Positions 10,154 to 25,770 of a DNA stretch of 64,000 nt are shown here, one piece after another. The stretch spans positions 620,001 to 684,000 of the forward strand of contig NZ_BMFH01000001.1 of NCBI RefSeq assembly GCF_014638095.1, given 5' to 3'. The stretch is from Muriicola marianensis. GTDB lineage: Bacteria; Bacteroidota; Bacteroidia; Flavobacteriales; Flavobacteriaceae. The notes beneath the pieces were generated by a model, which was not told the origin of the DNA, did not search any database, and saw only the letters and a program-made list of their open reading frames with translations. The translations under genes and the position numbers were made by a program. Every line of letters begins with the position of its first letter. Position 1 is the first letter of the stretch.

Positions 10154-10244
10154 TCATTGGTCTAAGGCAAACTTCCATTCGTCTACACTTATTTTCCATT
10201 CGTCTTCAGTTTGCAAAGCGGAATTATGTAAAACCGGATCTTAG
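10154..10244 (+). promoter_or_regulatory. LytTR-type promoter 1: three 21-nt-period repeats plus -7-like box
   Basis: Direct repeats TCATTGGTC (10154), CCATTCGTC (10175) and CCATTCGTC (10196) are spaced at exactly 21 nt. A GATCTTAG box starts at 10237, exactly 41 nt after the start of the last repeat. ACTTAACC follows at 10251-10258, just before the ATG at 10268. The same layout occurs at 16633, 18397 and 25701. Paired 9-nt direct repeats one or two helical turns apart are how LytTR regulators such as AgrA bind. Confidence 0.75.
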
Positions 10245-10267
10245 GCAATTACTTAACCCTTACCGCG

Positions 10268-10669
10268 ATGAATATACTCTTCATTGAAGACGATGCTATT
10301 GAGTCGTTGAAACTCAACAGGACCATTTCGAAATGGCCCGTCAAACACAAGATCATACAGGCCAAGAACGGGGAAGAAGCTCTGGACTTCCTGAACGGAC
10401 CCGAAAAGCTTCCCGATATCATTTTGCTGGACCTGAATATGCCCAGAATGAATGGGATCGAATTTTTGCGAATCCTGAAGGACGATGCGGAACTCAGATA
10501 TTTGCCCACTGTGGTGCTCACCACATCACAGAACCGGGCAGACCTCCTTGAATGTTATCGTATCGGGATAGCCGGTTATATCATAAAACCGCTGAAATAC
10601 GAGGATTACGAAGACAAGATCCAAAAACTGATCGCCTACTGGGAGATAAACGAACTGATCAAAGCCTAA
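10268..10669 (+). CDS. Stand-alone receiver (CheY-like) protein
   Basis: A 133-residue protein made of one receiver domain with no output domain. Acidic pocket Asp8/Asp9 (FIEDDA), phospho-acceptor Asp55 (LLDLNMP), the switch Thr in LTTSQ and Lys in IIKPLK are all present, so it should be phosphorylatable. It stands 76 nt before the H-NOX gene and is probably transcribed with the H-NOX, kinase, HPt and LytTR genes. The kinase there has no receiver of its own, yet an HPt protein exists. This receiver is therefore the best candidate for the intermediate step kinase, receiver, HPt, LytTR. It is preceded by the repeat-bearing promoter at 10154-10244, which implies feedback control. Confidence 0.9.
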   Translation: MNILFIEDDAIESLKLNRTISKWPVKHKIIQAKNGEEALDFLNGPEKLPDIILLDLNMPRMNGIEFLRILKDDAELRYLPTVVLTTSQNRADLLECYRIGIAGYIIKPLKYEDYEDKIQKLIAYWEINELIKA

Positions 10670-10682
10670 TGAAAATCGATGT

Positions 10683-10730
10683 TTCACAACATATTTTTTT
10701 CATCAGGTCTTAATTTTCCTACATTGTGAA
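10683..10730. promoter_or_regulatory. Inverted repeat before the H-NOX gene
   Basis: TTCACAA (10683-10689) and TTGTGAA (10724-10730) are perfect 7-nt inverted arms 34 nt apart. The right arm overlaps a TACATTGT sequence that resembles a -7 box. It could be a regulator site or chance. Confidence 0.3.
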
Positions 10731-10745
10731 GCATTAGATTAAGTT

Positions 10746-11288
10746 ATGAAAGGCATTGTTTTTACCGAATTCCTGGAGATGGTCGAAGAGACCTTTGGCC
10801 TGGAAGTTACCGAACAGATCATTGAAGAATCCTCCCTTCCCTCGGAGGGAATTTACACCTCGGTGGGGACCTACGACTTTAACGAAATGGTCTCCCTGCT
10901 TACCAACCTTAGCAAGACAGTGGATATCCCGGCGAATAAATTACTTCATACCTTCGGACTTTATCTGTTCGACAGCCTGGGCAGGGCACATCCAGATATC
11001 ATCCAAAGCTATAAATCACCGCTTGCCTTACTCATGTCTATTGAGGACCACATCCATGTGCATGTAAAGAAGCTCTATCCCGATGCCGAACTGCCCACCT
11101 TCACCATCGTTGAAAAGACAGACAATTCCCTGTCCATGATCTATAACTCTTCCAGGGGGTTATACTGCCTGGCTCAGGGACTGATGGAAAAATGCTTTAT
11201 TCATTTTAACGGTTCAGCCCGTATCTCCTACGAACTGCTGAAAGAAGACGGGACCCAGGTAAAATTTGATATCCTCCAGCATGGATAA
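10746..11288 (+). CDS. hnoX: H-NOX haem nitric-oxide/oxygen-binding sensor
   Basis: A soluble haem sensor of 180 residues, the usual H-NOX length. The proximal haem ligand is His104, seven residues before the conserved Tyr-Pro (YPDAELPTF), as His105 is in soluble guanylate cyclase. The haem-propionate motif Y-x-S-x-R is Tyr133-Ser135-Arg137. In other bacteria H-NOX proteins bind NO and inhibit or control a neighbouring histidine kinase, often affecting biofilm. The stop codon overlaps the ATG of the following PAS kinase by 8 nt, so translation of the two is coupled. Whether this protein favours NO only or also O2 cannot be decided here. Confidence 0.93.
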   Translation: MKGIVFTEFLEMVEETFGLEVTEQIIEESSLPSEGIYTSVGTYDFNEMVSLLTNLSKTVDIPANKLLHTFGLYLFDSLGRAHPDIIQSYKSPLALLMSIEDHIHVHVKKLYPDAELPTFTIVEKTDNSLSMIYNSSRGLYCLAQGLMEKCFIHFNGSARISYELLKEDGTQVKFDILQHG

Positions 11289-13257
11289 CAAGGAAGTCGC
11301 CTTGCTGAAAAAGGCGCTGGAACGTCAGAAAAAAGCGCGGCGGCAAGCAGAAAGTATCCTGGAAGAGAAATCCCGGGAACTCTACGAGACTTCACGCCAA
11401 CTGCAGGAGACCAACGACAGACTGGAAAACCTGCTCAGTGAAAAAACTTCAGAACTCGAAGGTGTATTTGTCAATATCGTAGACCCTTATGTGGTCATGG
11501 ACCTGGATACCAATGTGATCAGGATGAATTCGGCAGCCGTAGAATTCCTGGGATACGATCACACCAAAGAGCCCCTGAACCTAAGCACACTGGTGCACCC
11601 TGATTTCAAGGAATACACCCTGAATTCCTTAAATCAGCTTTTCAGTGCAGGTTCCTTAAAAAATTACCGGGCCAGGATCTTCATCAAGGACGGGTCGACC
11701 CGATTTGTACAGATCAACAGCAGTATGATCTATGACAAGGACCGCAACCCCATCGCCGCCCAGGGGATCATTCGCGACATCACTGGAGAAATGGAGGCTG
11801 AAGAACAGATCCGGGCCTCCCAGAACCGCCTGTCTACATTGATCTCCAACCTGCAAACCGGGGTACTGCTCGAGAGCGAGGACCGAAAGATATCCCTGAC
11901 CAACCAAATGTTCTGTGACCTTTTTCAGATCCCGGTACCCCCGGATCAATTGAAAGGGGCCGACTGCTCCAACGCTGCTGAGGAGAGTAAACACCATTTT
12001 ACGGATCCCGAAGGCTTTGTCAAAAGGATTGATGAGATCCTGAAATCAAAAAAACTAGTGCTTTCCGATGAACTTGAAATGAAGGACGGGAGGATCCTGG
12101 AAAGAGACTACATCCCCATTTTCAGTGACGGGAAATACAAGGGTCACCTCTGGACCTACCAGGATGTGACCCTCCGGAAGAACTACAAGAAGAACATCGA
12201 AGCTCAGAAAGAGAAGTACTGGAGTATCATCGCCAATATGAACCTCGGGCTTGTAGAGGTTGACAACGAAGACACCATCCAACTGGTCAATCAGAGTTTC
12301 TGCTCCATGAGCGGCTACTCCGAAAAAGAATTGCTGGGCTCCAAGGCTGCTGATCTGCTCAAGGTCCACGAAAAAAACCTGATCCAGAAAAAAGGGAAAG
12401 AACGCCTTAAAGGCAAGTCGGATTCATACGAAATAAAGGTCCTGTCTAAATCCGGGGAGGAAAAACACTGGCTGGTGAGCGGGGCACCGCGATACGATGA
12501 AACCGGAAAAGTGGTAGGTTCCATCGGTATCCACCTCGACATTACCTCCCAGAAAAACCTGGAGATCCAAAAGGAAGAACTGCTCTCAGAACTGGAAGCC
12601 AGTAACAAGGGCTTGCAGGAATACGCCCATATCGTTTCCCATGACCTGAAATCTCCCCTGAGGAGTATCAGCACCCTGGCCACCTGGCTTCACGATGATT
12701 ACAAGGACAAACTGGACGAGGCGGGGATCTACAACCTGCAGATGATGCAGGAAAAGGTGGAAGGCATGGACAAACTGATCGATGGCATTTTGAAATATTC
12801 CAGTATCAAGAGCGAGACCCTGGAGAAATCTCCTGTAGACCTGAATACCGTCGTGAATGAGATCAGGGAGATCATTTACATTCCCGAACACGTCAATGTG
12901 ATCATTATGGATCCCCTCCCCACTCTTGAAGCGGATGCCACTAAGATGCATCAGCTCTTTCAGAACCTCATCGGCAATGCCGTTACCAATATCGACAAGG
13001 AAGAAGGGATCGTGGCCATAGGAGTCAGGGAAGAAAAGGATCACTGGGAATTTTATGTCAGGGATAATGGCGTGGGCATCCCTGAAGAATACCATGAGAA
13101 GATCTTTAAGATATTTCAATCCATCGGGAACGAAGAACGCTCAACGGGGATCGGATTGTCTATAGTTAAGAAGATCATCGACCTCTACCAGGGCGAAATC
13201 TGGCTGGAAAGCGAGGTAGGTCAAGGGACCACCTTCTTCTTTACGCTAAAAAAATAA
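11281..13257 (+). CDS. PAS-domain sensor histidine kinase partnered with H-NOX
   Basis: A soluble kinase of 658 residues; the ATG at 11281 is chosen over an upstream TTG because it gives the usual overlap with the H-NOX stop. Domains in order are an N-terminal coiled coil (about 1-60, KKALERQKKARRQAESILEE type), three PAS domains (about 60-180, 185-300, 305-430), HisKA with phospho-acceptor His454 (SHDLKSPL), and HATPase with N box (NLIGNA), G1 (DNGVGIP) and G2 (STGIGLS). It has no membrane helix and no attached receiver. It should signal to the lone receiver at 10268 or directly to the LytTR regulator. The coiled coil is the likely contact for H-NOX. Confidence 0.93.
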   Translation: MDNKEVALLKKALERQKKARRQAESILEEKSRELYETSRQLQETNDRLENLLSEKTSELEGVFVNIVDPYVVMDLDTNVIRMNSAAVEFLGYDHTKEPLNLSTLVHPDFKEYTLNSLNQLFSAGSLKNYRARIFIKDGSTRFVQINSSMIYDKDRNPIAAQGIIRDITGEMEAEEQIRASQNRLSTLISNLQTGVLLESEDRKISLTNQMFCDLFQIPVPPDQLKGADCSNAAEESKHHFTDPEGFVKRIDEILKSKKLVLSDELEMKDGRILERDYIPIFSDGKYKGHLWTYQDVTLRKNYKKNIEAQKEKYWSIIANMNLGLVEVDNEDTIQLVNQSFCSMSGYSEKELLGSKAADLLKVHEKNLIQKKGKERLKGKSDSYEIKVLSKSGEEKHWLVSGAPRYDETGKVVGSIGIHLDITSQKNLEIQKEELLSELEASNKGLQEYAHIVSHDLKSPLRSISTLATWLHDDYKDKLDEAGIYNLQMMQEKVEGMDKLIDGILKYSSIKSETLEKSPVDLNTVVNEIREIIYIPEHVNVIIMDPLPTLEADATKMHQLFQNLIGNAVTNIDKEEGIVAIGVREEKDHWEFYVRDNGVGIPEEYHEKIFKIFQSIGNEERSTGIGLSIVKKIIDLYQGEIWLESEVGQGTTFFFTLKK

Positions 13258-13259
13258 AT

Positions 13260-13577
13260 ATGGAACAACCCAATCTCTCCTATATCAAACAACTGGCCGG
13301 AGGTGATACCGCTTTCGAAGATAAATTTATCACTATCTTGAAGGATGAATTCCCGGGGGAGAAAAAGGAGTATGAAAAGGCCTTGCAAGAGAAACGCCTG
13401 CATGATACGGCCCTCATAGTTCATAAATTGAAACACAAACTGAATATTCTGGGGCTGGAGCAGGGTTATGGTATAGCTGTTGACTATGAAGAGAGGTTGC
13501 GCCGAGGAAATTCTGACCTGTCCGGAGCCTTCCGGGAGATCCTTGAAACCATTGAAAAGTACTTAAAGACCATTTGA
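13260..13577 (+). CDS. Stand-alone HPt phosphotransfer protein
   Basis: A 105-residue all-helical protein starting 2 nt after the kinase stop. It has the HPt signature around His55 (IVHKLKHKLNILG), the H-x-L-K pattern that carries phosphate between two receivers. Free HPt proteins take phosphate from one receiver and give it to another. The receiver at 10268 and the LytTR regulator at 13580 fit as donor and acceptor. No catalytic domain is present. Confidence 0.88.
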   Translation: MEQPNLSYIKQLAGGDTAFEDKFITILKDEFPGEKKEYEKALQEKRLHDTALIVHKLKHKLNILGLEQGYGIAVDYEERLRRGNSDLSGAFREILETIEKYLKTI

Positions 13578-13579
13578 CC

Positions 13580-14287
13580 ATGACATGCATTATCATTGAC
13601 GATGAAGCAGCTGCCAGGGCTATTGTCTCCCAGCTCTGTGCCAAAACCCCGGAACTCGATGTCATCGAAGAGTTTTCCAACGCCATCGACGCCATCAAAT
13701 TCCTCAACCAACAAAATATCGATCTCGTCTTCCTCGATATCCATATGCCGGGCTTTACGGGGATCGACTTTGTACAGACCCTCAAGAATCCCCCAATGGT
13801 GGTCCTGACCACTTCCGATACGAATTTTGCCATAGAGGCCTATGAATACGAAGCTATTGTGGATTACCTGGTCAAACCCATCACCCCGGAACGGTTCGCT
13901 AAGTCCATCCAAAAAGTAAAGAATTCCCTTACCGCCCAACCGGTGCAGGGTGCTGATACCGCCTCTTCAGGGGTTGGAAATGAACTTTATATCAACATCG
14001 ACCGCCGCCTGATCAAACTGAAATTTGAGGATATCCTTTTTATTGAAGCCAAGGGCGACTATATCGATGTGAAGACAACGAAGGAAGACTATCGGGTTCA
14101 CAACACGCTGAAAAAGATCAAGGAGAAACTACCTGCTGAACTCTTTTTACAGATCCATCGGTCTTACATCATCAACTTCACCAAGATCATCGACATTGAG
14201 GACAACAGCGTCCTTATTGAGAAGAATGTGATCCCCATCAGCCGATCCAACAGGCCGGAGCTCATGCGAAGATTGAACCTCCTCTGA
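13580..14287 (+). CDS. LytTR-family response regulator
   Basis: The transcriptional output of the relay. The receiver domain spans residues 1-120 with acidic IIDDE, phospho-acceptor Asp53 (VFLDIHMPG), TTSDTNFA and Lys in YLVKPI. The LytTR DNA-binding domain spans about 137-235 (ILFIEAKGDYIDVKTTKEDYRVHNTLKKI and IHRSYIINFTKI). The ATG at 13580 is preferred to a TTG six nt upstream and leaves a 2-nt gap after the HPt gene. LytTR domains bind pairs of about 9-nt direct repeats, and this locus has four promoters with CCATTCGTC-like repeats at 21-nt period, so it is the prime candidate for binding them. It ends 2 nt from the convergent TPR/barrel gene with no room for a terminator. Confidence 0.93.
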   Translation: MTCIIIDDEAAARAIVSQLCAKTPELDVIEEFSNAIDAIKFLNQQNIDLVFLDIHMPGFTGIDFVQTLKNPPMVVLTTSDTNFAIEAYEYEAIVDYLVKPITPERFAKSIQKVKNSLTAQPVQGADTASSGVGNELYINIDRRLIKLKFEDILFIEAKGDYIDVKTTKEDYRVHNTLKKIKEKLPAELFLQIHRSYIINFTKIIDIEDNSVLIEKNVIPISRSNRPELMRRLNLL

Positions 14288-14289
14288 CC

Positions 14290-16356
14290 CTAAAGACGGG
14301 CGAGCATTTTCTTGTAATACAGGGGGACTTCGCTGAGGTTCCACCTGAACGCGATCCCTATCTCTGTAAATTCAAAACCAGCAGCAGTAGCCGAGGCTAT
14401 ATTGCTGTACTTTCCGTACAACTCAGCACCTAACCTCTTGGAAAACCGGTGCTTTACTCCGGCTTCCAGCCTGAAGACCGCGGATTGAGGGTCATCCTCT
14501 ACCTGCTGCAGCCCAACAGCCCCGTTGAATCTGAAATTTGTCGATTCCGATACAGACCCATTGACTTCCCCGAACACCTCTACAGCCTGGTATTTCTCAG
14601 GACTGAAGTAGAGTTCGGGCAGCTGCTCCGCAAATGATATATACTGAAAGTTGATCCCAGTTTTTACAGCCGGGAGCTTCATGAGATTGTAATAGAGGGA
14701 GGTAAAAAGCAGGTTACGGCTGTTCCCATCGGTTTGCGCGGTATGCATGATCTGCGTATACCATCCCAGGCCCATCGTGGTACTGAGGTTGTAATTCAGT
14801 CCCAGGTGGTTCATCACGATCTCCCGCTCAATGAGATCGGCATTGAAATTCTGCACCTCCCTGCGATATCCGAGCTCCGCATTTTGCAGTCGAAAGGGCT
14901 TGAACTGTAAGCGGAGGTCGACCACCGGCTGGGTGTATTCCCCAAGATCAGATCGGGACGTGTTAAAACCGGCATTAGCTTTTATCCGTGTATTGGGCAT
15001 GAGTGTATAGGTGAGTCCGCCCATAACCACATGAGAAAGGGCCCGGTTTCCGGAAAGTGTGTTCTCGGTCTCCCGGTAGAGGTACGAAAGTTCGGTCGCG
15101 AACCTGGTTGAAAATGGGATCTGCAATTGCAGCTGATTCCCGAAAGCAATGTTATTGCCATTGTCAAAAGTGTAGAAGGGCTTGTCTTCAACAGCGGGAA
15201 TATACTTTTCATTGATCTTTTCGATCAAAGCCTGCGCATCGGCCTGGCCAGGGAAATAGGTCAGGGTCCTGAAAGCAGCCCGGTAAGCCGGAACAGGGCG
15301 GTCTGAGGCGAAAAGTGCATTGGCATTGCCCAGATTGCCATCAAATGAGGTGCTGTCATTGAGTAATATATCATTGTACTCGTTTATAGCAACATCAAAC
15401 TTTCCGGTGTACATTCCCAGGGTGGCTCGAAGGGCCTTAACCCAGCTTTCTTCTGGCATAAGCTGTTCCAGGCTGTCGATCTGTTTTTCTGCCCGGGTAT
15501 ACCTGCCATTCCATATCAATGCCTGCACGTAACGCTCGCGGGAGCGCTGACTGAGTTCCACATCTGTTATACTCCGGGATTTCTCCAATCCTTCAGCGGC
15601 AGTTCGGAGGGCCTGTTTTTCGTCCCGATCCAAATGGGCCACCAGGGATAGTCCGCTAAGAGCCCTAACGGAATCCTGAAGAGTAGTTGCCATTTCGATA
15701 AATGTCCGCCTGGCCTTATCCGTTTCCTTCTTCATCAGGTAGAGGTTGGCCAGACTGATCAACGTTTCACGGTCTGAAGGGAAATCTATGAAATTCTCCT
15801 TGAACAATGCTTCAGCGCTATCATACTCCTTGTCCTTTATCTTTTTGTCTGCATACCCTAGTTTGATATACTTCCTGGAGATCCTGGCACTGGCATTGGA
15901 GCTGTCCAGAGCGATGGCCTTATCGATCCACTTAAGGGCCTGGGGATATTCCCCGAGATTGCTGAGTGTATTGGCATATCCGAGGACAGAGGCGAAAGAT
16001 TCGGGGTATTCCCTGACGAGGGATTCGTAAAGTGGTCTGGCCTTTTCGTATTGGCCATCCCATAAAAAAGCCTCGTTAAAATTAAGGTCGACCTCCAGAT
16101 CACCAGGGTACTGTTCTTTCAGGGTTTCAAAAAGAGAGATCGCCTTTGCGGGATTTCCGTTGAGTCCGACAGCCCTTCCGTAACAGATCAGGGCCGTTTT
16201 GTTCTCAGGTGCTTCCAGGAGATATTCGTCAAAAAATTCCTCTGCACCGGCAAAATCCCCGGAATCCAGAAGGTGGAAGCCCTCATTCATATTCCCCTGC
16301 CCGAACAGGGTAAAGGCAGAGATAAGAAGAACTGAAATTGTCAGGTAAAGTCGCAT
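14290..16356 (-). CDS. TPR plus outer-membrane beta-barrel protein (YaiO/PgaA-like layout)
   Basis: A 688-residue exported protein with a signal peptide (hydrophobic, cleaved near FGQG). TPR repeats fill about residues 20-390 and a C-terminal domain of alternating strands lies at about 400-688 (FTEIGIAFRWNL near the end), resembling the YaiO outer-membrane barrel. The same two-part design occurs in polysaccharide secretins such as PgaA and BcsC, so export of the locus polysaccharide is the likely role. Upstream on the minus strand it shares ACTTAACCT directly before its ATG with four other genes of the locus, but I found no repeat pair at the 41-nt position. Confidence 0.8.
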   Translation of the reverse strand: MRLYLTISVLLISAFTLFGQGNMNEGFHLLDSGDFAGAEEFFDEYLLEAPENKTALICYGRAVGLNGNPAKAISLFETLKEQYPGDLEVDLNFNEAFLWDGQYEKARPLYESLVREYPESFASVLGYANTLSNLGEYPQALKWIDKAIALDSSNASARISRKYIKLGYADKKIKDKEYDSAEALFKENFIDFPSDRETLISLANLYLMKKETDKARRTFIEMATTLQDSVRALSGLSLVAHLDRDEKQALRTAAEGLEKSRSITDVELSQRSRERYVQALIWNGRYTRAEKQIDSLEQLMPEESWVKALRATLGMYTGKFDVAINEYNDILLNDSTSFDGNLGNANALFASDRPVPAYRAAFRTLTYFPGQADAQALIEKINEKYIPAVEDKPFYTFDNGNNIAFGNQLQLQIPFSTRFATELSYLYRETENTLSGNRALSHVVMGGLTYTLMPNTRIKANAGFNTSRSDLGEYTQPVVDLRLQFKPFRLQNAELGYRREVQNFNADLIEREIVMNHLGLNYNLSTTMGLGWYTQIMHTAQTDGNSRNLLFTSLYYNLMKLPAVKTGINFQYISFAEQLPELYFSPEKYQAVEVFGEVNGSVSESTNFRFNGAVGLQQVEDDPQSAVFRLEAGVKHRFSKRLGAELYGKYSNIASATAAGFEFTEIGIAFRWNLSEVPLYYKKMLARL

Positions 16357-16632
16357 AGGTTAAGTTTTAAAAGTTGGCGCAATCGCTGTTTTGGGTCTTA
16401 CGCCACAATGGGTTCTTTAAAATGGATGTTCACGATAAAAAATTTTGAAGGGTACCTAAAATGGTCATTGCGTCTAAGATCAATGTCAGGAGGAGCCTCA
16501 AGACAAATTGAAATTGCCGCCCCTTGTACAAATACCCCAGAACTACAGATGACATAACGTTCCTTTTTTAGTGAATTAAATTGATATGGTAAAGTTACGG
16601 CGACTCCTTCCGCACCGGAAGTGCGAGAATGC
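16357..16632. other. Divergent intergenic region, no gene seen
   Basis: Together with the repeat promoter at 16633-16702 this makes a 389-nt divergent spacer. On the minus strand ACTTAACC lies at 16359-16366, directly before the barrel gene. A GATCTTAG box on the minus strand starts at 16481, but no CATTCGTC-type repeat lies 41 nt upstream of it. I see no open reading frame or RNA structure here. Confidence 0.5.
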
Positions 16633-16702
16633 CCATTCGTCTATAGTAATCCGCCGTCCGTCTTAGAGGACTAAAAAAAGACGTCAGTTCAGTGGATCTT
16701 TG
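16633..16702 (+). promoter_or_regulatory. LytTR-type promoter 2 (STAS-flippase operon)
   Basis: Repeats CCATTCGTC (16633) and CCGTCCGTC (16654) have 21-nt period. A GATCTTTG box starts at 16695, 41 nt after the start of the second repeat. ACTTAACC follows at 16723-16730 before the ATG at 16746. Confidence 0.8.
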
Positions 16703-16745
16703 GCATCAAATGTTCAAGAAGTACTTAACCTAAATTCCTATAGTT

Positions 16746-17048
16746 ATGGCTTTAATGATCACAGAAAAGAATAACATGATCAAAGTTTGGGGGCATCTCA
16801 ATGCCCAGAACATGAACAGTCTCAGCAAGCATCTGGAACAATCAAAAAGAAGGAGTGAGTACCTGGTACTTTCCCTGGATCATGTTGAAAGCATAGACCC
16901 GGCAAGTACCAAAGTTCTGGAGAACGCTTATTGTGATACGGCCGCGAATAACCAGGTCCTGACCATCATTGGGAGGCATAATACAGCTGTAAGCTGGGTA
17001 ATGCGGAGTACTAATACATCTTATATCCTCAGCAATGACCGCGTTTAG
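16746..17048 (+). CDS. STAS-domain protein
   Basis: A 100-residue protein matching the STAS/anti-sigma-factor-antagonist fold: MIKVWGHLNAQNMNSLSKHL at the start, then LVLSLDHVESIDPASTKVLENAY, where a Ser or Thr after the Asp is the usual phosphorylation point. It overlaps the flippase gene by 14 nt and is thus translated with it. In other bacteria STAS proteins adjust exopolysaccharide or transporter activity by binding partners. A regulatory role for the flippase or another locus protein is inference. Confidence 0.75.
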   Translation: MALMITEKNNMIKVWGHLNAQNMNSLSKHLEQSKRRSEYLVLSLDHVESIDPASTKVLENAYCDTAANNQVLTIIGRHNTAVSWVMRSTNTSYILSNDRV

Positions 17049-18267
17049 ACTCATCCTGAAAAAAGTAAGCCCTGAACAACTCTTTATGGGAAGCGTCCTC
17101 CTTGTCAACGGAGGCAATTACCTGTACAACCTGTTGTTGGGAAGGATCCTCGGCCCTGAAGCCTATGCGGATGCGGCCCTGCTGGTGACCCTGCTTCTGG
17201 TTTTCTCCTTCCTGGGGATGACGTTTCAACTGGCTACCACTAAGTTTGCCGTACTTTTCTCAGGAAATGACTGGGAATCATTCCTCAACAGAACCTATAA
17301 ACAGGCCATTGCGGTAGGGATTTTTGTCGCGGCGGTCTTTGTTTATTTTGCCAAGGACCTGCAGGAACTCTTCCATACATCTTCTCCCTATATGTTTGTG
17401 GCCCTGGGATTTGGCATCCCTCTTTATTTTGTGATGAGTGTGAACCGGGGGACCTACCAAGGAAGACAAGATTTCAACCTGCTCTCGATTACCTACCAGA
17501 CCGAGATGTGGAGCAGGCTGCTCATTACCCTGGCCTTCGTGATCTTCAGTCCATGGGATCCAGGAATTTCTGTAGCCCTGGGTATCGCATTTTCATTTCT
17601 ATTTGGTTTGATCCCCTCAAATTTCAAAGGGATCTCTATTGGCAGGCCCTCTCTTTTGGCAAAACCGCTCGCCCTAAATGTTAACCGTTTTATGGTACTG
17701 ACTCTCGGTTACGAGATCACCCAGATCATCATCAATAACAGCGATGTACTGATGGTCAAACACTATTTCGAAGCTGGTGAGGCCGGTCTATATGCCTCCC
17801 TGGCCCTGATAGGAAGGGTCGTCTATTTTGTGGCCTGGATGTTTGTAATGCTCCTTTTGCCTGCCGTAGTCCAGAAAGAGAAAAACAATGAAGCCACAAC
17901 TCCTATCCTGTTCAGGTATGTGGGCTATGTGGGATTACTTTCTGTTTCGATCATCACCACCTGCTATTTCTTTCCCGAACTGATCATTCAGCTGATGTTC
18001 GGAGAGGCCTATGTGTCTATGGCAGACCTCCTATGGCAATACGCCCTGGCCACTGCCCTTTTTGCTATCGGTAATATCTTTACCTACTATTTTTTGTCCC
18101 TGGACCGGTATGTTCCCGTGATCATTTCCGGATTGCTGGGACTTTCCCAAATCGCAGGCATCAGCCTGCTCCACCGTTCCCTTGAACAAGTCGTTCACGT
18201 TCAGATCGGGATCATGCTATTGCTGTTGGGTTCGCAATTGCTGTTCTTCATTCTGAAGAAGGGATAA
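17035..18267 (+). CDS. Polysaccharide flippase (Wzx/MOP superfamily)
   Basis: A multi-pass inner-membrane protein of 410 residues with about 12 predicted helices, the expected size for Wzx-type lipid-linked oligosaccharide flippases. The N-terminus has the family pattern LLVNGGNYLYNLLLGRILGPEAYADAALL; later MVLTLGYEITQIIINNSDVLMVKHYF matches the second half of the fold. It would move polysaccharide repeat units across the inner membrane. It overlaps the STAS gene and is followed by a strong terminator, so the two form a short operon driven by the repeat-bearing promoter. Confidence 0.9.
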   Translation: MTAFRLILKKVSPEQLFMGSVLLVNGGNYLYNLLLGRILGPEAYADAALLVTLLLVFSFLGMTFQLATTKFAVLFSGNDWESFLNRTYKQAIAVGIFVAAVFVYFAKDLQELFHTSSPYMFVALGFGIPLYFVMSVNRGTYQGRQDFNLLSITYQTEMWSRLLITLAFVIFSPWDPGISVALGIAFSFLFGLIPSNFKGISIGRPSLLAKPLALNVNRFMVLTLGYEITQIIINNSDVLMVKHYFEAGEAGLYASLALIGRVVYFVAWMFVMLLLPAVVQKEKNNEATTPILFRYVGYVGLLSVSIITTCYFFPELIIQLMFGEAYVSMADLLWQYALATALFAIGNIFTYYFLSLDRYVPVIISGLLGLSQIAGISLLHRSLEQVVHVQIGIMLLLLGSQLLFFILKKG

Positions 18268-18293
18268 TAGGGGAAAATTCCCCTTTATGAGAA

Positions 18294-18338
18294 AGGATCA
18301 GTCATAAGGATTGCGGACTGGTCCTTTTTCTTTTTTTA
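18294..18338 (+). terminator. Terminator after the flippase gene
   Basis: AGGATCAGTC and GACTGGTCCT form a 10-bp stem (one G-T wobble) followed by a long T run. A smaller GGGGAAAATTCCCC palindrome precedes it at 18270-18283. Confidence 0.85.
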
Positions 18339-18396
18339 GTAACTGAGTGAAAGTAATATCCAGGAGTTATAAAAACCGTTTACCGACATTGATTTT

Positions 18397-18466
18397 CCAT
18401 TCGTCTACAGCAGCCCTGCATTCAACAGATATCGCCCATTTCAATGTTACTTATAAAGGATATTTG
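18397..18466 (+). promoter_or_regulatory. LytTR-type promoter 3 (GT4 gene)
   Basis: A perfect CCATTCGTCTACA repeat starts at 18397 and a degenerate GCATTCAAC at 18418, with 21-nt period. A weaker CCGTT.. occurs one more period upstream at 18376. A GATATTTG box starts at 18459, 41 nt after the second repeat start. ACTTAACC at 18488-18495 is followed by T and the ATG. Confidence 0.75.
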
Positions 18467-18496
18467 TCCTGTAAAAACAAGTAAAATACTTAACCT

Positions 18497-19732
18497 ATGA
18501 AACTAGCAATTGTAACCGCCTATCCCCCGAGTAAGGTCACCCTTACCGAGTACGGCTATCACCTGGTAAAGCATTTTCGCCTGCAGGAAGAAGTCGACGA
18601 GATCGTACTGATCACAGATCGTACGGCAGAGGAAAAGGACTTATCCTTTGAAGAGGAAGGGTGTAAGATCACTGTCCGGGAAGCTTGGGATTTCAACAAC
18701 TACTTCAGTCTTTTCGGAATTCTGAAGACGGTGAGGCAGACCAAACCCGATGCCGTCCTGTTCAACCTCCAGTTCCTGAAATTCGGGGATAAAAAAGTAC
18801 CTGCGGCACTAGGTTTACTGGCTCCCTTCTTTTGCAAGATCCAGGGGATCCCGACCATTTCCCTCATCCATAACATCCTGGAGCAAGTCGACCTGGAAAA
18901 TGCAGGGATCACCCAGAACAAAATCCTTCAAAAGGTCTATAACTTTATCGGTGGAATGTTGACCCGGTTTGTATTGGCCTCTGATGTTGTCGCTGTGACC
19001 ATCAGTAAATACGTGACGATTCTGGAGAAGAAATACAAGGCCAGAAATATTGCCCTGATCCCACATGGGTCATTCGAAACTCCACCAGAGCCGGATTACA
19101 GCCTTCCCGCAGGGCCTAAACAAGTGATGGCTTTTGGCAAGTTCGGAACCTACAAACGCGTAGAAGTCCTGATAGAAGCTGTGGAAATGATCAGGAAACG
19201 AAGTACGGAAGACATTGAGATCGTGATCGCCGGTACAGATAGTCCCAATACACCCGCATATTTGCAGGAAATGGCTGAGCGATATGCACATGTACCTCAA
19301 CTGAGATTTACCGGTTATGTTGCCGAGGAAGATGTCCCCACCATCTTTGGGGAGAGTGCCGTTGCCGTATTCCCCTATACCTCCACTACCGGTAGCTCGG
19401 GAGTACTTCACCAGGCCGGGAGCTATGGCAAGGCTGTTGCCCTGCCCGACCTGGGCGACCTGGGGATCCTCGTACGGGAGGAAGGGTATGCCGGAGAGTT
19501 CTTCGAACCGAATAACACAGCCTCCCTTGCCAATGCCATTCAAAAGATCCTGGAAGATGATGCTTACAGGGTAGCCCTTGGAAAGACAAATTACAAGGCT
19601 GCCTGTTCCCTGCCCATGTCTGAGATCACAAAGATGTACACGGATTATTTTAAAGCGATCCGATTTAAGAACCTGCCTGAAAAATTATCTCTGGACTCCA
19701 CTATAAAACAAGAGGAGCTGAAACCGTACTAA
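18497..19732 (+). CDS. GT4-family glycosyltransferase
   Basis: A 411-residue cytoplasmic glycosyltransferase with the GT-B fold. The N-terminal half starts KLAIVTAYPPSKVTLTEYGYHLVKHF. The C-terminal half has the GT4 pattern: VMAFGKFGTYKRVEVLIEA, IVIAGTDSP, LRFTGYVAEEDVPTIF and the donor-binding VFPYTSTTGSSGVLHQAGSYGKAV. It probably adds a sugar from an NDP donor during repeat-unit assembly. It is single, with its own repeat-bearing promoter and a terminator overlapping the end of the convergent hydrolase gene. Confidence 0.88.
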   Translation: MKLAIVTAYPPSKVTLTEYGYHLVKHFRLQEEVDEIVLITDRTAEEKDLSFEEEGCKITVREAWDFNNYFSLFGILKTVRQTKPDAVLFNLQFLKFGDKKVPAALGLLAPFFCKIQGIPTISLIHNILEQVDLENAGITQNKILQKVYNFIGGMLTRFVLASDVVAVTISKYVTILEKKYKARNIALIPHGSFETPPEPDYSLPAGPKQVMAFGKFGTYKRVEVLIEAVEMIRKRSTEDIEIVIAGTDSPNTPAYLQEMAERYAHVPQLRFTGYVAEEDVPTIFGESAVAVFPYTSTTGSSGVLHQAGSYGKAVALPDLGDLGILVREEGYAGEFFEPNNTASLANAIQKILEDDAYRVALGKTNYKAACSLPMSEITKMYTDYFKAIRFKNLPEKLSLDSTIKQEELKPY

Positions 19733-19758
19733 ACGCAAAGGTTAGGTTAAGTAGAAGT

Positions 19759-19794
19759 GGGTGTCATTCTAGTAATGGCGCCCATTTCATTTTT
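19759..19794 (+). terminator. Terminator after GT4 gene
   Basis: GGGTGTCATT and AATGGCGCCC pair over 10 bp with two G-T wobbles, followed by a T-rich run. It overlaps the end of the convergent glycoside hydrolase gene. Confidence 0.6.
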
Positions 19795-21319
19795 GGGAAG
19801 AAGATACCAGCGCACCAAAGGCAGGTTTTTCCCTTCCGTTATTGTCTATGAGACCAAAATGACGTTGAGGTGCTTTCCGCCAGGGCAGGCGACCCACCAC
19901 CTCCGCCGGGACCTGATCAAAATCATAAAGCGTCCAGGAAAGGAAGGGAAGATTCTCCCCCTGAAGAGATATGACCATTTTTTGATAATAGTCTACCTGA
20001 GATTCTTCTGAACCTGTAAAGAAATTCCAGATACCACTGTAGGACGAGAAACCGATCTCGCTGATCACGACCTGTTTGTCTCCTATTTTCTCCTGCAGTT
20101 TTTCATGATATGAGACAAACATGTCCGGATCTTCGTAAAAATGGTATGAGACAAAATCCAGGCGTTCATGGAGATTATCAGCTGCCGCCGGGGAAGACCA
20201 CCCGATCGTCAAAGGATGTACTTTATCCCACTTCTTGACTTGCCTTACCATTTCTTCCAGCCAGGCCATGACCTCTGCCCTGCCCCTGGATTTGAAGTCG
20301 AGATCAGGCTCATTCTTGATGTCCCACCCCAGCAAGGCAGGGTGCTCCTTCAGGGCCCCTACAAGGGTCTCAGCATGCCTGTGTGTACGAGTCCAGTCCG
20401 CCAGGTCGTAATTCCCGTAGAAATCGAAAAGGGTCACCAGAACCTTTAATCCGGCTTCATCAGCCAGGTCCATCAACCTGACCAGCTTTTGAAGTTTTTC
20501 CGGCTTTACAGTAGCTGCCCCGAAATCCTCATAGGGAATGAATACTCGGAGGGTGTTGAGTCCCATGGCACTGACCTTTTCAAAATCCCCTGCAAGCGTT
20601 TTTGGATCGAAATCATCCCCAAAAGTATCCCAGGGCGACCGGGCAGGATAGTAATTCAGCCCTTTAATTTGCCCTATACTGGCAGGGCCAGTAATTCTCT
20701 CTGGAACAGCACCGTTGCTCGGATTTGGTATCTCCTCCATATGCCTTACCCTCCAGAAACCGTCTTCCAGTAGCATCATGACTCGGTAAGAAGAAATGAG
20801 TGGTCCTGATGCGAGTTTTTGTTCTCCTTTCCGAATCTCCTGGAACCATTCCATCCCGGTATCTGTAAATACGACTAGCTTTCCATCGAGGCTGTAAAAT
20901 TCGAGTGACAGGTGATGATTCAGGGTGGAAAGTGAAATCCGCGTATCCTGGTCCTTATTCAATTTAATGATTTCCGTGAGTTTACGGTAAAGACTGTCCG
21001 TGTAATAATCCTTCAGCCCATACGGGTCGAGCTGATCAAATGCAATACTGCGTACATACCACGAGCGGATATAGTCCCTTTCTATGTCCTGCAGGGTCTG
21101 GGATTCCATGGGCCTCCCGGGATTTTCGAGGTTTCTCCATTCAGTATCAGGAAGATAGGTATCTTCCGTTTCTGAGGCGATATGGAGGATGGAGGTCTTG
21201 TCTGCCCCGGAATTCATATACACCCAGACCGCGCCTATCCCAAAAAGGAGGGCTGCATTGACCCCCAGGAAGGAGATCAGCAACAGGGCCCGGTATATGT
21301 TCTTATTCCGTGTCTTCAT
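19787..21319 (-). CDS. Membrane-anchored glycoside hydrolase (GH5/GH39-like, clan A)
   Basis: A 510-residue protein with an N-terminal membrane helix (about residues 11-34) and a periplasmic body. Residues about 60-210 resemble an NTF2/SnoaL-like domain, and about 215-505 form a TIM-barrel hydrolase. The acid/base is Glu337 (WDIKNEPDL) and the nucleophile Glu421 (VVISEIGF), the spacing of clan-A glycosidases. PslG, a GH39 enzyme of the Psl locus, has a comparable role in exopolysaccharide trimming; a similar job here is inference. The start overlaps the end of the Ig-lipoprotein gene by 17 nt, so the genes are translationally linked. Confidence 0.85.
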   Translation of the reverse strand: MKTRNKNIYRALLLISFLGVNAALLFGIGAVWVYMNSGADKTSILHIASETEDTYLPDTEWRNLENPGRPMESQTLQDIERDYIRSWYVRSIAFDQLDPYGLKDYYTDSLYRKLTEIIKLNKDQDTRISLSTLNHHLSLEFYSLDGKLVVFTDTGMEWFQEIRKGEQKLASGPLISSYRVMMLLEDGFWRVRHMEEIPNPSNGAVPERITGPASIGQIKGLNYYPARSPWDTFGDDFDPKTLAGDFEKVSAMGLNTLRVFIPYEDFGAATVKPEKLQKLVRLMDLADEAGLKVLVTLFDFYGNYDLADWTRTHRHAETLVGALKEHPALLGWDIKNEPDLDFKSRGRAEVMAWLEEMVRQVKKWDKVHPLTIGWSSPAAADNLHERLDFVSYHFYEDPDMFVSYHEKLQEKIGDKQVVISEIGFSSYSGIWNFFTGSEESQVDYYQKMVISLQGENLPFLSWTLYDFDQVPAEVVGRLPWRKAPQRHFGLIDNNGREKPAFGALVSSSQK

Positions 21320-22529: not shown

Positions 22530-25500
22530 CTATTTGGGATTACCTATAAAGTGATCCGTTTCTATCTTAATAAACCCATTAACGCCGTTTTTCACGGGTT
22601 GCAAGAGTGGCCTTTTGCTGTCCTCTCTTCCTGCCGATAGCCTTTTTCGGGCGATCTCATCATTGGGGAGTCCATTGACAAAGCAATTGGACATATCGGG
22701 CGATATCACTTCCAGATCTTCCAGGTTCGGCAGCGGATGTTCAAACGCCTGTACCCGTTGCACCCTGATCCCGTCTTGCACAAAGGACTGGTCTACCCAA
22801 AGAAGTTCTCTGTTGTCGTCATAATACGATATGAGCACCAGGGGAATGGTTACCTCCTGCACCCCACTGTTAAAGAGGGTCCCGCGGATTTCCTTTTCCG
22901 AAAATTCTACTCTCTGAACAGCCACGTCCTTGTAAAGTTCAGAGGTTGCGATATTGGCAGCAGACTGGAGGTTGAACCTGACGGGGTCTTCCTCAAGGAC
23001 CACGGGGTCGAACTCGTCCGGGTTAAAGGTAGCCGGCATGGTATCCTCCTTTGTTCGCCAGGAAATCTTTTCAAAATCGATCCTGAAGGAAGTAACCTCC
23101 ATAGGCATCAGTTTATGCTTCATGTGGTATTTCGCATTATAGGAAGCCAATACTTTGCTCCTTTCATTGTACAAGGTGGCAGAAAGCGTAACGTCTGCCG
23201 GAACACGATCGATGTTCTGCACTTCCCCAACGATGGCAAACCGGTCTCCAAACCTTACCAGGCGGGCTGTGAGAATTTCCAGAACCGGCTGTTCGAGCAC
23301 GTCTTCATGATGGGTTTGCTGGGTGGTGATCTTCCTCCTGCCGTGATTGTAATACCTGGTGACATTCGAGGAAAAGAGCTGATCTGAAGGTATGTCCCTT
23401 TGAGGCGGGTCCGGAAGGAGGTACCACAGTCCGTCCTGCTTCACAACCTGTTTCCTGTCTGTTCTCCTGATAGTCTCCAGGGGGGTGATCCAGACGGTCT
23501 CTACCTCCAGGGATGTTGTATTTCCGGATCTTGAGAGTTCCTTCACGCCCAGGGAATCTAACTTGGCATAGGAACTCAGGATCCCGTCCGTAACTGCTAC
23601 CTCCAGCATATACTGTTCCAGGGAGATGGCCTCGGAGGGGGCCAGGTAAGAATGTGCCCTCTCGAATTCCTTGAAATCAAGGGCATCATAATAGGCTTTG
23701 ACCACATTCTCAGGTGATCGTTGGGTATTGTTCTCCAGGTAAAATTGATATCCGGCATAGGCGAACAACAGGGATAACAGGAGTGCCCATACAGCATTCA
23801 GCCTGATGAGCCCAGGCGAAAATCCCCTGAGCGTATTGCCCGATTTCATGTAGGCGGCTTCCGTTTGGGTTGTGAACTTCAGGACCCTCACCCAGATCAA
23901 TCGGATATTCAGTAAAAACGCGATCAATACTGTCAACACCGGCAGCGTACCCCACATGAGTTTGAGGTAAACCGACACGTCTTCTTTGGGGATTATTGTG
24001 GGCAAGGGAGGCACGTTCAGGCGTTCCCAGACCATGATACCGTTTTCGAGTTGTTGCAAACGCTGCCAGCCGCAGAAATAGAGGACGGGATCATAAAACT
24101 TGTCATTGGAGAAGATGTACTTCAGGTTGTATTTCTCAGGGACCACCAGGAATTGCTGCAGTGACCCGATGCCTTCGACTCCCCGGAATTTGGAATTTTC
24201 CAGTCTTTCAATAGCCTTGGTGGTCAGTTCGGGCAATCTCCTTGCCGAGTGGTAATTTCCATCAACGGTCGCTGCACGGGTCTGGGCAGACAACCAGGCC
24301 ATCTGATCGCCGAAACCCAGGGTGAGATACCGCCACTGGTCGTGCATGTCCTGATTGAGGAAATTCACGATTGGCAGTATATTGATCTTCTGCGGTTGGG
24401 AAGGCCTGAAATATCCGAGACTCATGGAAAAAATGACCATAAAGAGGATGCCTCCTGCCAGGAGACCTCCGGTAATGCGGTGAAGGACCGATCCAAAGCG
24501 CTGTTCGAGGCTTTCTTTGAGATCCCCTTCCACGAGGCGGTACATAAATTCTCCAAAGAGCGGCAATGCCATGATCGTCGCCCAGAGCGTAAACCTGTCC
24601 AGGGTCAGGATATTGAAGGCCGTTTCCCCCAGGAGCATCCTTGGAATGGGAGTGGTGCCCCCGGTACCCAACAAGGTGAGCAAACTGAAGGACAAGCCGA
24701 AGAAAAGGTATCTTTTGCTGAAGAATCGATAAAAAAGGTATGGAAGCAGGAATAGGAGTATCCCCCAGGGAATAAGGAAGAACACGAGGCCCGAGGAGGT
24801 CACTTCCAGAAAATTGTCCCTGGATCCATGAGGGATGGGGATCTGGGTGATGGGATTCTCCCTGGAATTGATCCAGTAGGGAAGGATACAGAAAATGATC
24901 AGAAATAGGGATCCTGCTCCAAAAGCCACGATCCTCCAAAACAGTTTTTGAAAGGACCGGAAGAATACTTTAAACGTTATCTGCTTACTTTCTGAAACCG
25001 TGGTCCGGGCATCATCCATGACGGCCATCCCGATAAGGGGAAAGATAAAGAACACCATCCCGAAGATGGGTGTTACATGGTGCGAAGTCACGGTAACGGC
25101 AATCAGGGAGAAGGCCAACCCCAGTTTTATCAGTTTCCCGGTTCTCAGCCATTCGTAAATTTCGGGTAGGGAATGGAGTAAAACAGAGAGGCCAACGATA
25201 CTAGGAAGCTGTCCAAACAGGTGGAGCGTCTCAATAAAAGTAGATGAAACCACCGCCAGCAGGGCCGCATATCCGGCGATCCTCCGGTTCCCGGTCATAA
25301 TCAGCCCAAATCGGTACACCCCGGTTATAAAAAGAACTATGGCCGTCAGTGCAACGACGTACAACCCAAATTTGAGTCCGCCCAGCAGAGACAAAAGCGC
25401 CATCATCTGGTGTACCAGAGGGGGATATCCCATCACAGTAAATCCTGTGTACCACCTGTAATCCCAGGGTTCCCACCATTGGGTAGCGTAATGATCTGCA

Positions 25501-25616
25501 AAGAACAGATGGATAAGGGCATCGTAAGTAGACTCCAGGGTAAAGAACAGAGCAGAACCATGGAATGCCAGCCCCAGGAACAGTGCGAGCAACAGCAGTA
25601 AATTAGATCTTTTCAT
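22530..25616 (-). CDS. Large PTPS-related multi-pass membrane protein (GT-C-like)
   Basis: The start at 25616 is chosen because it puts a hydrophobic helix directly at the N-terminus; an ATG 11 codons upstream lacks this. About 1028 residues. The N-terminal 560 residues carry 11-13 membrane helices with the early motif STYDALIHLFFADHY..WYTGFTVMGYPPLVHQ, typical of the PTPS_related family of membrane proteins that resemble GT-C glycosyltransferases. After a further helix, about 650-770 resembles an NTF2-like domain, and the rest is beta-rich. As the first gene of the minus operon it is the candidate polymerase or lipid-linked sugar transferase of the locus. Confidence 0.75.
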   Translation of the reverse strand: MKRSNLLLLLALFLGLAFHGSALFFTLESTYDALIHLFFADHYATQWWEPWDYRWYTGFTVMGYPPLVHQMMALLSLLGGLKFGLYVVALTAIVLFITGVYRFGLIMTGNRRIAGYAALLAVVSSTFIETLHLFGQLPSIVGLSVLLHSLPEIYEWLRTGKLIKLGLAFSLIAVTVTSHHVTPIFGMVFFIFPLIGMAVMDDARTTVSESKQITFKVFFRSFQKLFWRIVAFGAGSLFLIIFCILPYWINSRENPITQIPIPHGSRDNFLEVTSSGLVFFLIPWGILLFLLPYLFYRFFSKRYLFFGLSFSLLTLLGTGGTTPIPRMLLGETAFNILTLDRFTLWATIMALPLFGEFMYRLVEGDLKESLEQRFGSVLHRITGGLLAGGILFMVIFSMSLGYFRPSQPQKINILPIVNFLNQDMHDQWRYLTLGFGDQMAWLSAQTRAATVDGNYHSARRLPELTTKAIERLENSKFRGVEGIGSLQQFLVVPEKYNLKYIFSNDKFYDPVLYFCGWQRLQQLENGIMVWERLNVPPLPTIIPKEDVSVYLKLMWGTLPVLTVLIAFLLNIRLIWVRVLKFTTQTEAAYMKSGNTLRGFSPGLIRLNAVWALLLSLLFAYAGYQFYLENNTQRSPENVVKAYYDALDFKEFERAHSYLAPSEAISLEQYMLEVAVTDGILSSYAKLDSLGVKELSRSGNTTSLEVETVWITPLETIRRTDRKQVVKQDGLWYLLPDPPQRDIPSDQLFSSNVTRYYNHGRRKITTQQTHHEDVLEQPVLEILTARLVRFGDRFAIVGEVQNIDRVPADVTLSATLYNERSKVLASYNAKYHMKHKLMPMEVTSFRIDFEKISWRTKEDTMPATFNPDEFDPVVLEEDPVRFNLQSAANIATSELYKDVAVQRVEFSEKEIRGTLFNSGVQEVTIPLVLISYYDDNRELLWVDQSFVQDGIRVQRVQAFEHPLPNLEDLEVISPDMSNCFVNGLPNDEIARKRLSAGREDSKRPLLQPVKNGVNGFIKIETDHFIGNPK

Positions 25617-25646
25617 GTCTGATCCCTGTAGGAAAATATAACAGTT

Positions 25647-25654
25647 CAAAGGTA
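25647..25654 (-). promoter_or_regulatory. -7 box of the PTPS-Ig-GH operon
   Basis: On the minus strand TACCTTTG matches TAnnTTTG, about 30 nt before the start codon at 25616. No clear TTG at -33. No CATTCGTC repeat is found 41 nt upstream on this strand, so this operon may be controlled differently from the plus-strand promoters. Confidence 0.55.
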
Positions 25655-25700
25655 GATATATTGTGGTATTGATCGATAATCGGCCACAGATACTACGGGT

Positions 25701-25770
25701 CTGTTCGTCTACAGAAATCCGTCATTCGTCTCCGGCCACCCAAAATGAAGGTCTCCCCCGTTTACTTTTG
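25701..25770 (+). promoter_or_regulatory. LytTR-type promoter 4 (receiver-GT2 gene)
   Basis: Repeats CTGTTCGTC (25701) and TCATTCGTC (25722) have 21-nt period. TACTTTTG, a perfect TAnnTTTG box, starts at 25763, exactly 41 nt after the second repeat. ACTTAACC at 25822-25829 is followed by T and the ATG at 25831. Confidence 0.8.

Follow-up and report, generated by a model that had tools for sequence, protein, structure and literature searches.

Direct repeats at a fixed distance from the -7 box mark a putative LytTR regulon of an H-NOX relay and polysaccharide genes in Muriicola marianensis and related Flavobacteriaceae

In this study, we analysed a 64,000-nt stretch (hereafter the window) of the genome of Muriicola marianensis, a marine bacterium of the family Flavobacteriaceae with a genome size of 3.03 Mb (contig NZ_BMFH01000001.1, positions 620,001 to 684,000). 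Four transcription units in the window are preceded by direct repeats with a period of 21 nt, which stand at fixed distances from a -7 box. Judged by sequence, the same repeat arrangement recurs in dozens of related genera. Very probably, the LytTR response regulator encoded at 13580 uses these repeats as its operator; it would be fed by a phosphorelay and would activate the promoters of both the relay operon and a polysaccharide cluster. The repeats and boxes of the four units are as follows (window coordinates).

10154..10212, plus strand: unit 1 array, copies at 10154, 10175 and 10196, period 21 (matrix scores 12.4, 23.1 and 15.9)
10237..10244, plus strand: unit 1 -7 box GATCTTAG, 41 nt from the last repeat
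16633..16670, plus strand: unit 2 repeat pair, copies at 16633 and 16654 (scores 20.2 and 4.4)
16695..16702, plus strand: unit 2 -7 box GATCTTTG, +41 from the last repeat
18376..18413, plus strand: unit 3 repeat pair, copies at 18376 and 18397 (scores 12.6 and 19.5)
18459..18466, plus strand: unit 3 -7 box GATATTTG, 62 nt from 18397
25701..25738, plus strand: unit 4 repeat pair, copies at 25701 and 25722 (scores 16.4 and 10.2)
25763..25770, plus strand: unit 4 -7 box TACTTTTG, +41 from the last repeat

A preliminary description of this DNA had placed repeats and boxes before these four units, and both were found there. A search for paired CATTCGTC copies at period 21, allowing up to three mismatches, gave five matches in the window; 0.50 were expected from shuffles, and none of 100 shuffles reached five. 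With a matrix trained on relatives, pairs were found only at 10154, 10175, 16633, 18376 and 25701, and there was no pair on the minus strand of the window. The matrix has about 17 informative columns per repeat, CCATTC(A/G)TC(T/G)ACA(C/G)TAA. The period of the copies stood, but the repeat is longer than the 13 nt first described, and a third copy of unit 3 at 18376, which has a counterpart in a same-genus genome, had been overlooked. The description had also put the last repeat 41 nt before the box in all units. This holds for units 1, 2 and 4, whereas the copy at 18418 of unit 3 (GCATTCAACAG) is degenerate. Similarly, all four boxes do lie at +41 from the last repeats it named, but the unit 1 box lacks the TTTG of the proposed (T/G)A-n-n-TTTG-like pattern. 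What is common to all four units is that the strongest copy (10175, 16633, 18397 and 25701) starts exactly 62 nt before the box, and the copy 41 nt before the box is weaker, from good (15.9) to unconvincing (-6.5, unit 3).

Within the genome, the repeats are confined to this cluster. All five matches of CATTCGTC-N13-CATTCGTC with at most two mismatches are these four promoters. There were 19 further matches, all with three mismatches. These can be regarded as noise, because a reversed-pattern control gave 23 matches against 24, and the best matrix pair near each of them scored no more than 8.2, compared with 24.6-39.0 at the real arrays. The repeats are therefore not widespread before unrelated genes.

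The LytTR response-regulator gene had been reported inside the cluster at 13580, and Pfam searches bear this out. It is the last of five genes of a relay operon, the first of which is a single-domain response regulator gene (RR1).

10268..10669, plus strand: RR1, single-domain response regulator (Pfam Response_reg)
10746..11288, plus strand: H-NOX (haem NO-binding) protein (Pfam HNOB, 128.9 bits)
11266..13257, plus strand: PAS histidine kinase (Pfam, several PAS-type matches)
13260..13577, plus strand: HPt-like phosphotransfer protein (Pfam score 23.0 bits, slightly below the cut-off of 24.6)
13580..14287, plus strand: LytTR response regulator, proposed repeat binder (ATG at 13580; the listed open reading frame (ORF) starts with TTG at 13574)

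The regulator matched the LytTR domain PF04397 with 74.7 bits (cut-off 22.6) and the receiver domain PF00072 (Response_reg) with 70.7 bits. The receiver contains the stretch LVFLDIHMPG, and we take its Asp to be the phospho-acceptor. No receiver domain was among the Pfam matches of the kinase; thus, RR1 and HPt could complete a His-Asp-His-Asp relay. A search of PDB with the LytTR domain alone gave only weak matches, 3d6w and ComE 4cbv. Meanwhile, the closest solved relatives of the H-NOX protein were 6bdd and 6bde, with 207-210 bits over 176 residues. The alignment to 6bde takes in the HIH and YxSSR stretches, which presumably hold haem.

To place the regulator in the family, we used a sample of 199 genomes, nearly one per genus. 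LytTR orthologs were defined by an identity of at least 52% and picked by hand; they were found in 83 of the 199 genomes among the matches listed, and the next matches reached no more than 44%, so that the group is clearly separated. Among named species, close relatives occur in Maribacter, Zobellia, Cellulophaga, Arenibacter and Robiginitalea. We fetched 80 of the 83 ortholog loci (all but those of the window genome, G170 and G147) as stretches of at most 20 kb, some of them cut by contig ends, 1.557 Mb in total. In these 80 loci, matches were found for RR1 in 67, H-NOX in 68, the kinase in 73 and HPt, beside LytTR, in 77, and all five relay genes were found in 57. H-NOX precedes the kinase and LytTR in 67 of the loci. 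In one locus (G131, L136), there are two adjacent orthologous LytTR genes, with 59% and 57% identity.

The period of 21 nt and the orientation of the repeats are conserved in these loci. Pairs of the repeat core with at most two mismatches occur 40 times forward and never in reverse at period 21, and every other period from 10 to 39 gave 0-3 forward and 0-1 reverse. The 17-column matrix was built from the core pairs of these loci. At threshold 15, it found 231 forward against 6 reverse pairs at period 21, and no more than 21 at each other period from 14 to 34. In total, 211 arrays lie in the orientation of LytTR and 5 in the opposite one, and 72 of the 80 loci have at least one array. Since the matrix had been trained on the same 80 loci, we also scanned a held-out set. 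It consists of 80 named loci minus 11 duplicates of training loci, that is 69 loci with 3 kb on each side only, and most RR1 promoters lie outside these short stretches. The held-out loci contain 51 forward and 2 reverse arrays, with an array in 40 of the 69. Furthermore, period 21 gave 56 forward pairs there, and every other period from 14 to 29 gave at most 4. Finally, as a control, we scanned 17 stretches with paralogous LytTR genes that we had chosen ourselves (0.337 Mb); they held two arrays, one with a box.

The spacing between repeats and box is conserved as well. In the held-out loci, TTTG stands at exactly +41 in 45 of the 51 arrays, so that the claim of a spacing fixed beyond chance was upheld. 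In the training loci, TTTG stands at +41 in 92 arrays, at +40 in 26, and at +62 and +61 in 17 each; the latter two are one repeat further than +40 and +41. When these four offsets from the repeat start (+40/41/61/62) were allowed, 149 of the 211 arrays had the TTTG. In addition, a fuller box pattern gave 138 matches at the four offsets against 21 in total at the other 101 offsets between 15 and 119. At -33, TTTG is present in 2 of 92 promoters compared with 5 of 92 in a background stretch, and TTG in 12 compared with 13. There is no -33 element in these promoters, as expected of activator-dependent ones.

Two other periods were inspected. Period 22 (21 cases) had the box at 40-41 in 8 of the 14 examined and looks like a genuine minor variant of the array. 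Period 17 (17 cases) was rejected as a separate arrangement. Among the 14 examined, 7 had the box at 44-45 and 5 had no box; because 44-45 plus 17 gives 61-62, these cases look like mis-registered 21-nt pairs. In three class-level LytTR relatives outside the family (G315, G485 and G338), no pair with a box was found even at a lower threshold. One of them, G485 (locus L285), belongs to another family and keeps the order H-NOX, kinase and LytTR (49%, 33% and 43% identity) without recognisable repeats. Meanwhile, an isolated array was seen outside the cluster on the minus strand of locus L302 at 6820, with a box TATTTTTG at +41, before a gene for a 118-aa protein.

In the window, units 2 to 4 belong to a polysaccharide cluster downstream of the relay operon. 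Its genes are listed here, with GT1 standing for the glycosyltransferase group 1 gene at 18497; in an NCBIfam search, no equivalog cut-off was reached among the matches listed.

14290..16356, minus strand: TPR protein, outer-membrane-barrel-like (sub-cut-off PgaA, BcsC and PrsT matches)
16746..17048, plus strand: STAS-domain protein, opens unit 2 (Pfam)
17035..18267, plus strand: putative flippase-like membrane protein (no Pfam or NCBIfam match)
18497..19732, plus strand: GT1, unit 3 (Pfam)
19787..21319, minus strand: cellulase/GH5-like protein (Pfam)
22530..25649, minus strand: 1039-aa protein, membrane protein by sequence (no Pfam match)
25831..26970, plus strand: receiver domain fused to a GT2 glycosyltransferase (RR-GT2), unit 4 (Pfam)

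The arrays of relatives stand before the same genes. We looked within 450 nt before each start and excluded genes whose start or upstream stretch was unavailable. For RR1, 37 of 41 relatives have an array there, 26 of them with a box at one of the allowed offsets. The corresponding figures are 24 of 39 for the flippase gene (23 with a box), 3 of 4 for the STAS gene (3), 21 of 40 for GT1 (21) and 8 of 19 for RR-GT2 (8). No array was found within this distance upstream of HNOB (52 genes), the kinase (39), LytTR (50), the TPR barrel (39) or GH5 (30), and HPt had one in 1 of 73. GT1 was matched in 40 and RR-GT2 in 23 of the 80 loci. In addition, arrays near LytTR in relatives precede genes for secreted sorting-tail proteins with DUF4114 or DUF6923, a CAP-domain protein, a UDP-sugar dehydrogenase and, by our own reading of the sequence, a Wzc-like protein; in Pfam, 4 of 9 extra target proteins had no family.

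Furthermore, the motif occurs together with the LytTR gene. A 20-letter pattern of it was found in 40 of the 83 genomes with a LytTR ortholog and in 5 of the 116 without one (Fisher test, P = 1e-13, ignoring shared ancestry). Of 56 sites, 46 are no more than 20 kb from the LytTR gene, 5 are elsewhere in ortholog genomes and 5 in genomes without an ortholog; 3 of the 5 distant sites precede relatives of RR1, flippase or RR-GT2. GT1 is present in 53 of the 199 genomes, and 52 of these have the LytTR ortholog; the exception is G106, where GT1 lies at a contig edge. We also examined eight genomes whose polysaccharide genes are not next to LytTR but on another contig, megabases away or, in G138, at 40 kb; two GT1 genes at the ends of contigs, that of G195 and a second one in G124, were not included. 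Six of the eight (G100, G138, G144, G002, G177 and G147) carry an array before GT1 whose box stands at one of the allowed offsets, with weak scores in G002. The arrays appear to follow the LytTR operon, and the polysaccharide genes can apparently escape from it.

From these results, we propose the following mechanism. A His-Asp-His-Asp relay formed by the PAS kinase, RR1, HPt and the LytTR receiver would phosphorylate LytTR, and the H-NOX protein beside the kinase probably tunes the relay, with NO as the putative signal. A LytTR dimer would then contact one side of the DNA at two direct repeats, or at three in some cases. The sigma-A box of Flavobacterium psychrophilum is given as -12 to -5 in the available part of PMC9723704, and with this position the repeat units would start near -74 and -53. 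From there, bound LytTR may recruit sigma-A RNA polymerase to promoters with a -7 box and without a -33 box. This would turn on the polysaccharide export and synthesis cluster (STAS-flippase, GT1 and the receiver-GT2 fusion), presumably for a matrix polysaccharide. Meanwhile, phospho-LytTR would also drive its own relay operon as a positive feedback. The receiver-GT2 fusion in turn suggests direct phospho-control of synthesis. The reading of the repeats as a LytTR regulon, put forward in the preliminary description, is supported by the co-occurrence with the ortholog, the operator geometry and the missing -33 element.

Several observations weigh against this reading. First, the matrix counts come from loci on which the matrix was trained, some held-out species probably share a genus with training species, and the genome counts share ancestry and are not independent. 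Second, 8 of the 80 loci have no array, and 11 of the 37 RR1 arrays lack a box at an allowed offset. Third, H-NOX was unmatched in 12 of the 80 loci, some of which are cut by contig ends, and 10 of these still have arrays. Fourth, arrays and LytTR can be separated. G049 (locus L323) has RR1, H-NOX and the kinase with a strong array, with HPt and LytTR unmatched beside them; none of its 10 LytTR proteins is an ortholog, and its genome is called 100% complete. In G158, whose genome is 87% complete, two arrays were found but no LytTR ortholog. In addition, the polysaccharide clusters of G172 and G011 (loci L304 and L305), the other two of the eight genomes above, have no arrays (best pair scores 4.5 and 5.6). 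They do contain RR1, H-NOX, kinase and HPt genes, but no LytTR match within 20 kb, and the LytTR ortholog lies elsewhere in the genome with an array before its own RR1. Thus, LytTR control of polysaccharide is not universal.

Finally, published LytTR operators match the window in geometry, which supports our reading, and supply two further points against it. In the part of PMC6193735 available, their direct repeats are given as 9 bp long, in most cases separated by 12 bp, and placed about 10 bp before the -35 element. As computed from its tables, the last repeat starts 41-43 nt before the start of the -10 box in 18 non-Bacteroides rows of Table 3, and the window has 41 nt, or 42 nt with the 9-mer set one base earlier. 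Because five rows for S. mutans in Table 2 give 36-42 nt and two Bacteroides rows give 45 nt, LytTR systems as a whole do not share a single distance. Compared by eye, CCATTC(A/G)T(C) agrees with the ACCACTTAT-like LytTR repeats given in this source at some positions only, so the likeness is loose.

Other explanations should be considered, and the one that survives best leaves the regulon as described and changes its input. The main signal could enter through the PAS domains or through STAS/receiver partners, with H-NOX as a minor or oxygen-linked modulator. We hold this to be quite possible, though short of probable. The several PAS-type matches of the kinase and the arrays in loci without an H-NOX match point to it, whereas the gene order with H-NOX before kinase and LytTR is kept in most loci and even in G485 of another family.

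A different binder of the repeats, for instance the TetR-type regulator (9504-10145), the AraC-type regulator (5512-7452) or an unlinked one, is improbable. The TetR-type gene adjoins the unit 1 array in the window genome, and G049 and G158 retain arrays without a LytTR ortholog. However, TetR has no match (E 1e-5) in any of the 80 loci of relatives, though 72 of them have arrays, and it was rejected as the repeat binder on this ground. Furthermore, LytTR is the only relay-operon protein with a DNA-binding domain in Pfam, and one-strand direct repeats at 21 bp fit LytTR rather than TetR, as TetR regulators usually bind palindromes.

Slightly less probable still, LytTR could bind and repress, or phosphorylation could merely relieve repression. 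Some H-NOX pathways work by derepression; Plate and Marletta are said to have described this for HnoC in 2013. However, the arrays do not overlap the core promoter but precede it, and this position together with the absent -33 element fits activation. Direct repeats of HdrR in the same position activate, according to the part of PMC6193735 available. Last, chance or a repeat artefact, which the shortness of single repeat copies might suggest, is refuted by the shuffles and by the held-out spacing. LytTR-driven activation from the repeats thus remains the reading that we prefer.

In addition to the repeats, five cluster genes share a short leader near the start codon.

10250, 16722, 18487 and 25821, plus strand, and 16365, minus strand: positions of the shared ACTTAACC leader

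In the window, TACTTAACC has four plus-strand copies, one in the leader of each unit, and one minus-strand copy at 19753. ACTTAACC stands directly before the minus-strand start of the TPR-barrel gene, whose protein has a predicted outer-membrane-barrel export function. The matrix found no repeats upstream of this gene, yet it has the ACTTAACCTATG leader. The genome has exactly three copies of ACTTAACCTATG, one at the start of each of the TPR-barrel, GT1 and RR-GT2 genes. We also counted CTTAACC no more than 22 nt from gene starts in the 18 closest loci. It was present there in 6 of 12 RR-GT2, 8 of 16 GT1, 7 of 15 TPR-barrel, 1 of 4 STAS and 1 of 15 RR1 genes; the count is 0 for eight other cluster genes and 5 of 208 for other ORFs, two of these being array targets. 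Our best guess is a candidate leader-level control that is shared with the barrel gene.

Taken further, the system may be a family-wide control of the matrix. It would combine an NO-sensing split H-NOX relay, a fixed repeat code with 41-nt geometry, cargo exchanged between genera (the polysaccharide cluster, secreted DUF4114/DUF6923 proteins, or UDP-sugar dehydrogenase and Wzc-like genes) and a post-transcriptional ACTTAACC(T)ATG layer that captured the TPR-barrel gene in the clade of this genome. We offer this wider picture tentatively and consider it rather doubtful as a whole.

Some neighbouring genes were also noted. Within the cluster, a gene for an Ig-like protein lies on the minus strand between the GH5-like and 1039-aa genes. 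Elsewhere in the window, there are a TPR protein with an adenylate/guanylate cyclase domain (2053-3885, 199 bits), a caspase-like C14 peptidase with a sub-cut-off TPR-S match (27106-28488) and two long proteins with very similar N-termini (28558-30636 and 32529-34598), the first of which has no Pfam match.

In a literature search limited to open-licence PMC articles, none of the titles, opening parts of abstracts and passages covered described this regulon, and a search of papers for the sequence strings gave only unrelated titles among the matches listed. The present results would give a concrete operator, a regulon and a probable cognate regulator to a phospho-LytTR protein of 83 of the 199 sampled flavobacterial genomes. 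For a flavobacterial H-NOX whose structure has been solved, they also propose a pathway open to experiment, with the question of whether NO turns surface polysaccharide on or off.

The system can be compared with several known ones. Among LytTR systems with direct-repeat operators, we count AgrA and ComE. Operators of this kind (HdrR/BrsR and others) resemble the present one in having one-strand repeats just upstream of the core promoter and an arrangement of positive autoregulation, as far as the available part of PMC6193735 describes them. They differ in that the repeats here read CCATTC(A/G)TC(T/G)ACA with about 17 informative columns and sometimes three copies, stand before a flavobacterial -7 box without a -33 element, and serve several promoters of a cluster instead of one operon. 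The comparison with the mostly Gram-positive operators given there suggests that LytTR activators may act here from much the same distance to the core promoter, with a -7 box and no -33. By the definition of the LytTR regulatory system (LRS; LytTR plus a membrane partner), the present one falls outside that group: its regulator has a receiver and is preceded by a kinase and HPt, and the neighbouring genes showed no LRS-type membrane partner. The LRS-like operons of B. thetaiotaomicron and B. ovatus also have direct repeats upstream of a Bacteroidota -33/-7 promoter. However, in the part of PMC6193735 available, they have 11-bp repeats with an 11-bp gap, 45 nt to the -7 box and a given -33 element, and their LytTR proteins carry transmembrane segments and autoregulate their operons.

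With respect to the input, HnoX-HahK-SypF of Vibrio fischeri is similar in that an H-NOX beside a kinase feeds an HPt and controls the syp exopolysaccharide; the HPt is a domain of SypF there and a free protein here, and the available part of PMC8738867 mentions no LytTR. The H-NOX of Kordia algicida is that of PDB 6BDD, and it differs in that the available part of PMC7356049 gives the structure only and describes no pathway. By its sequence features, the present system joins the known LytTR direct-repeat kind, here with an H-NOX relay as the apparent input and polysaccharide as the predicted output.

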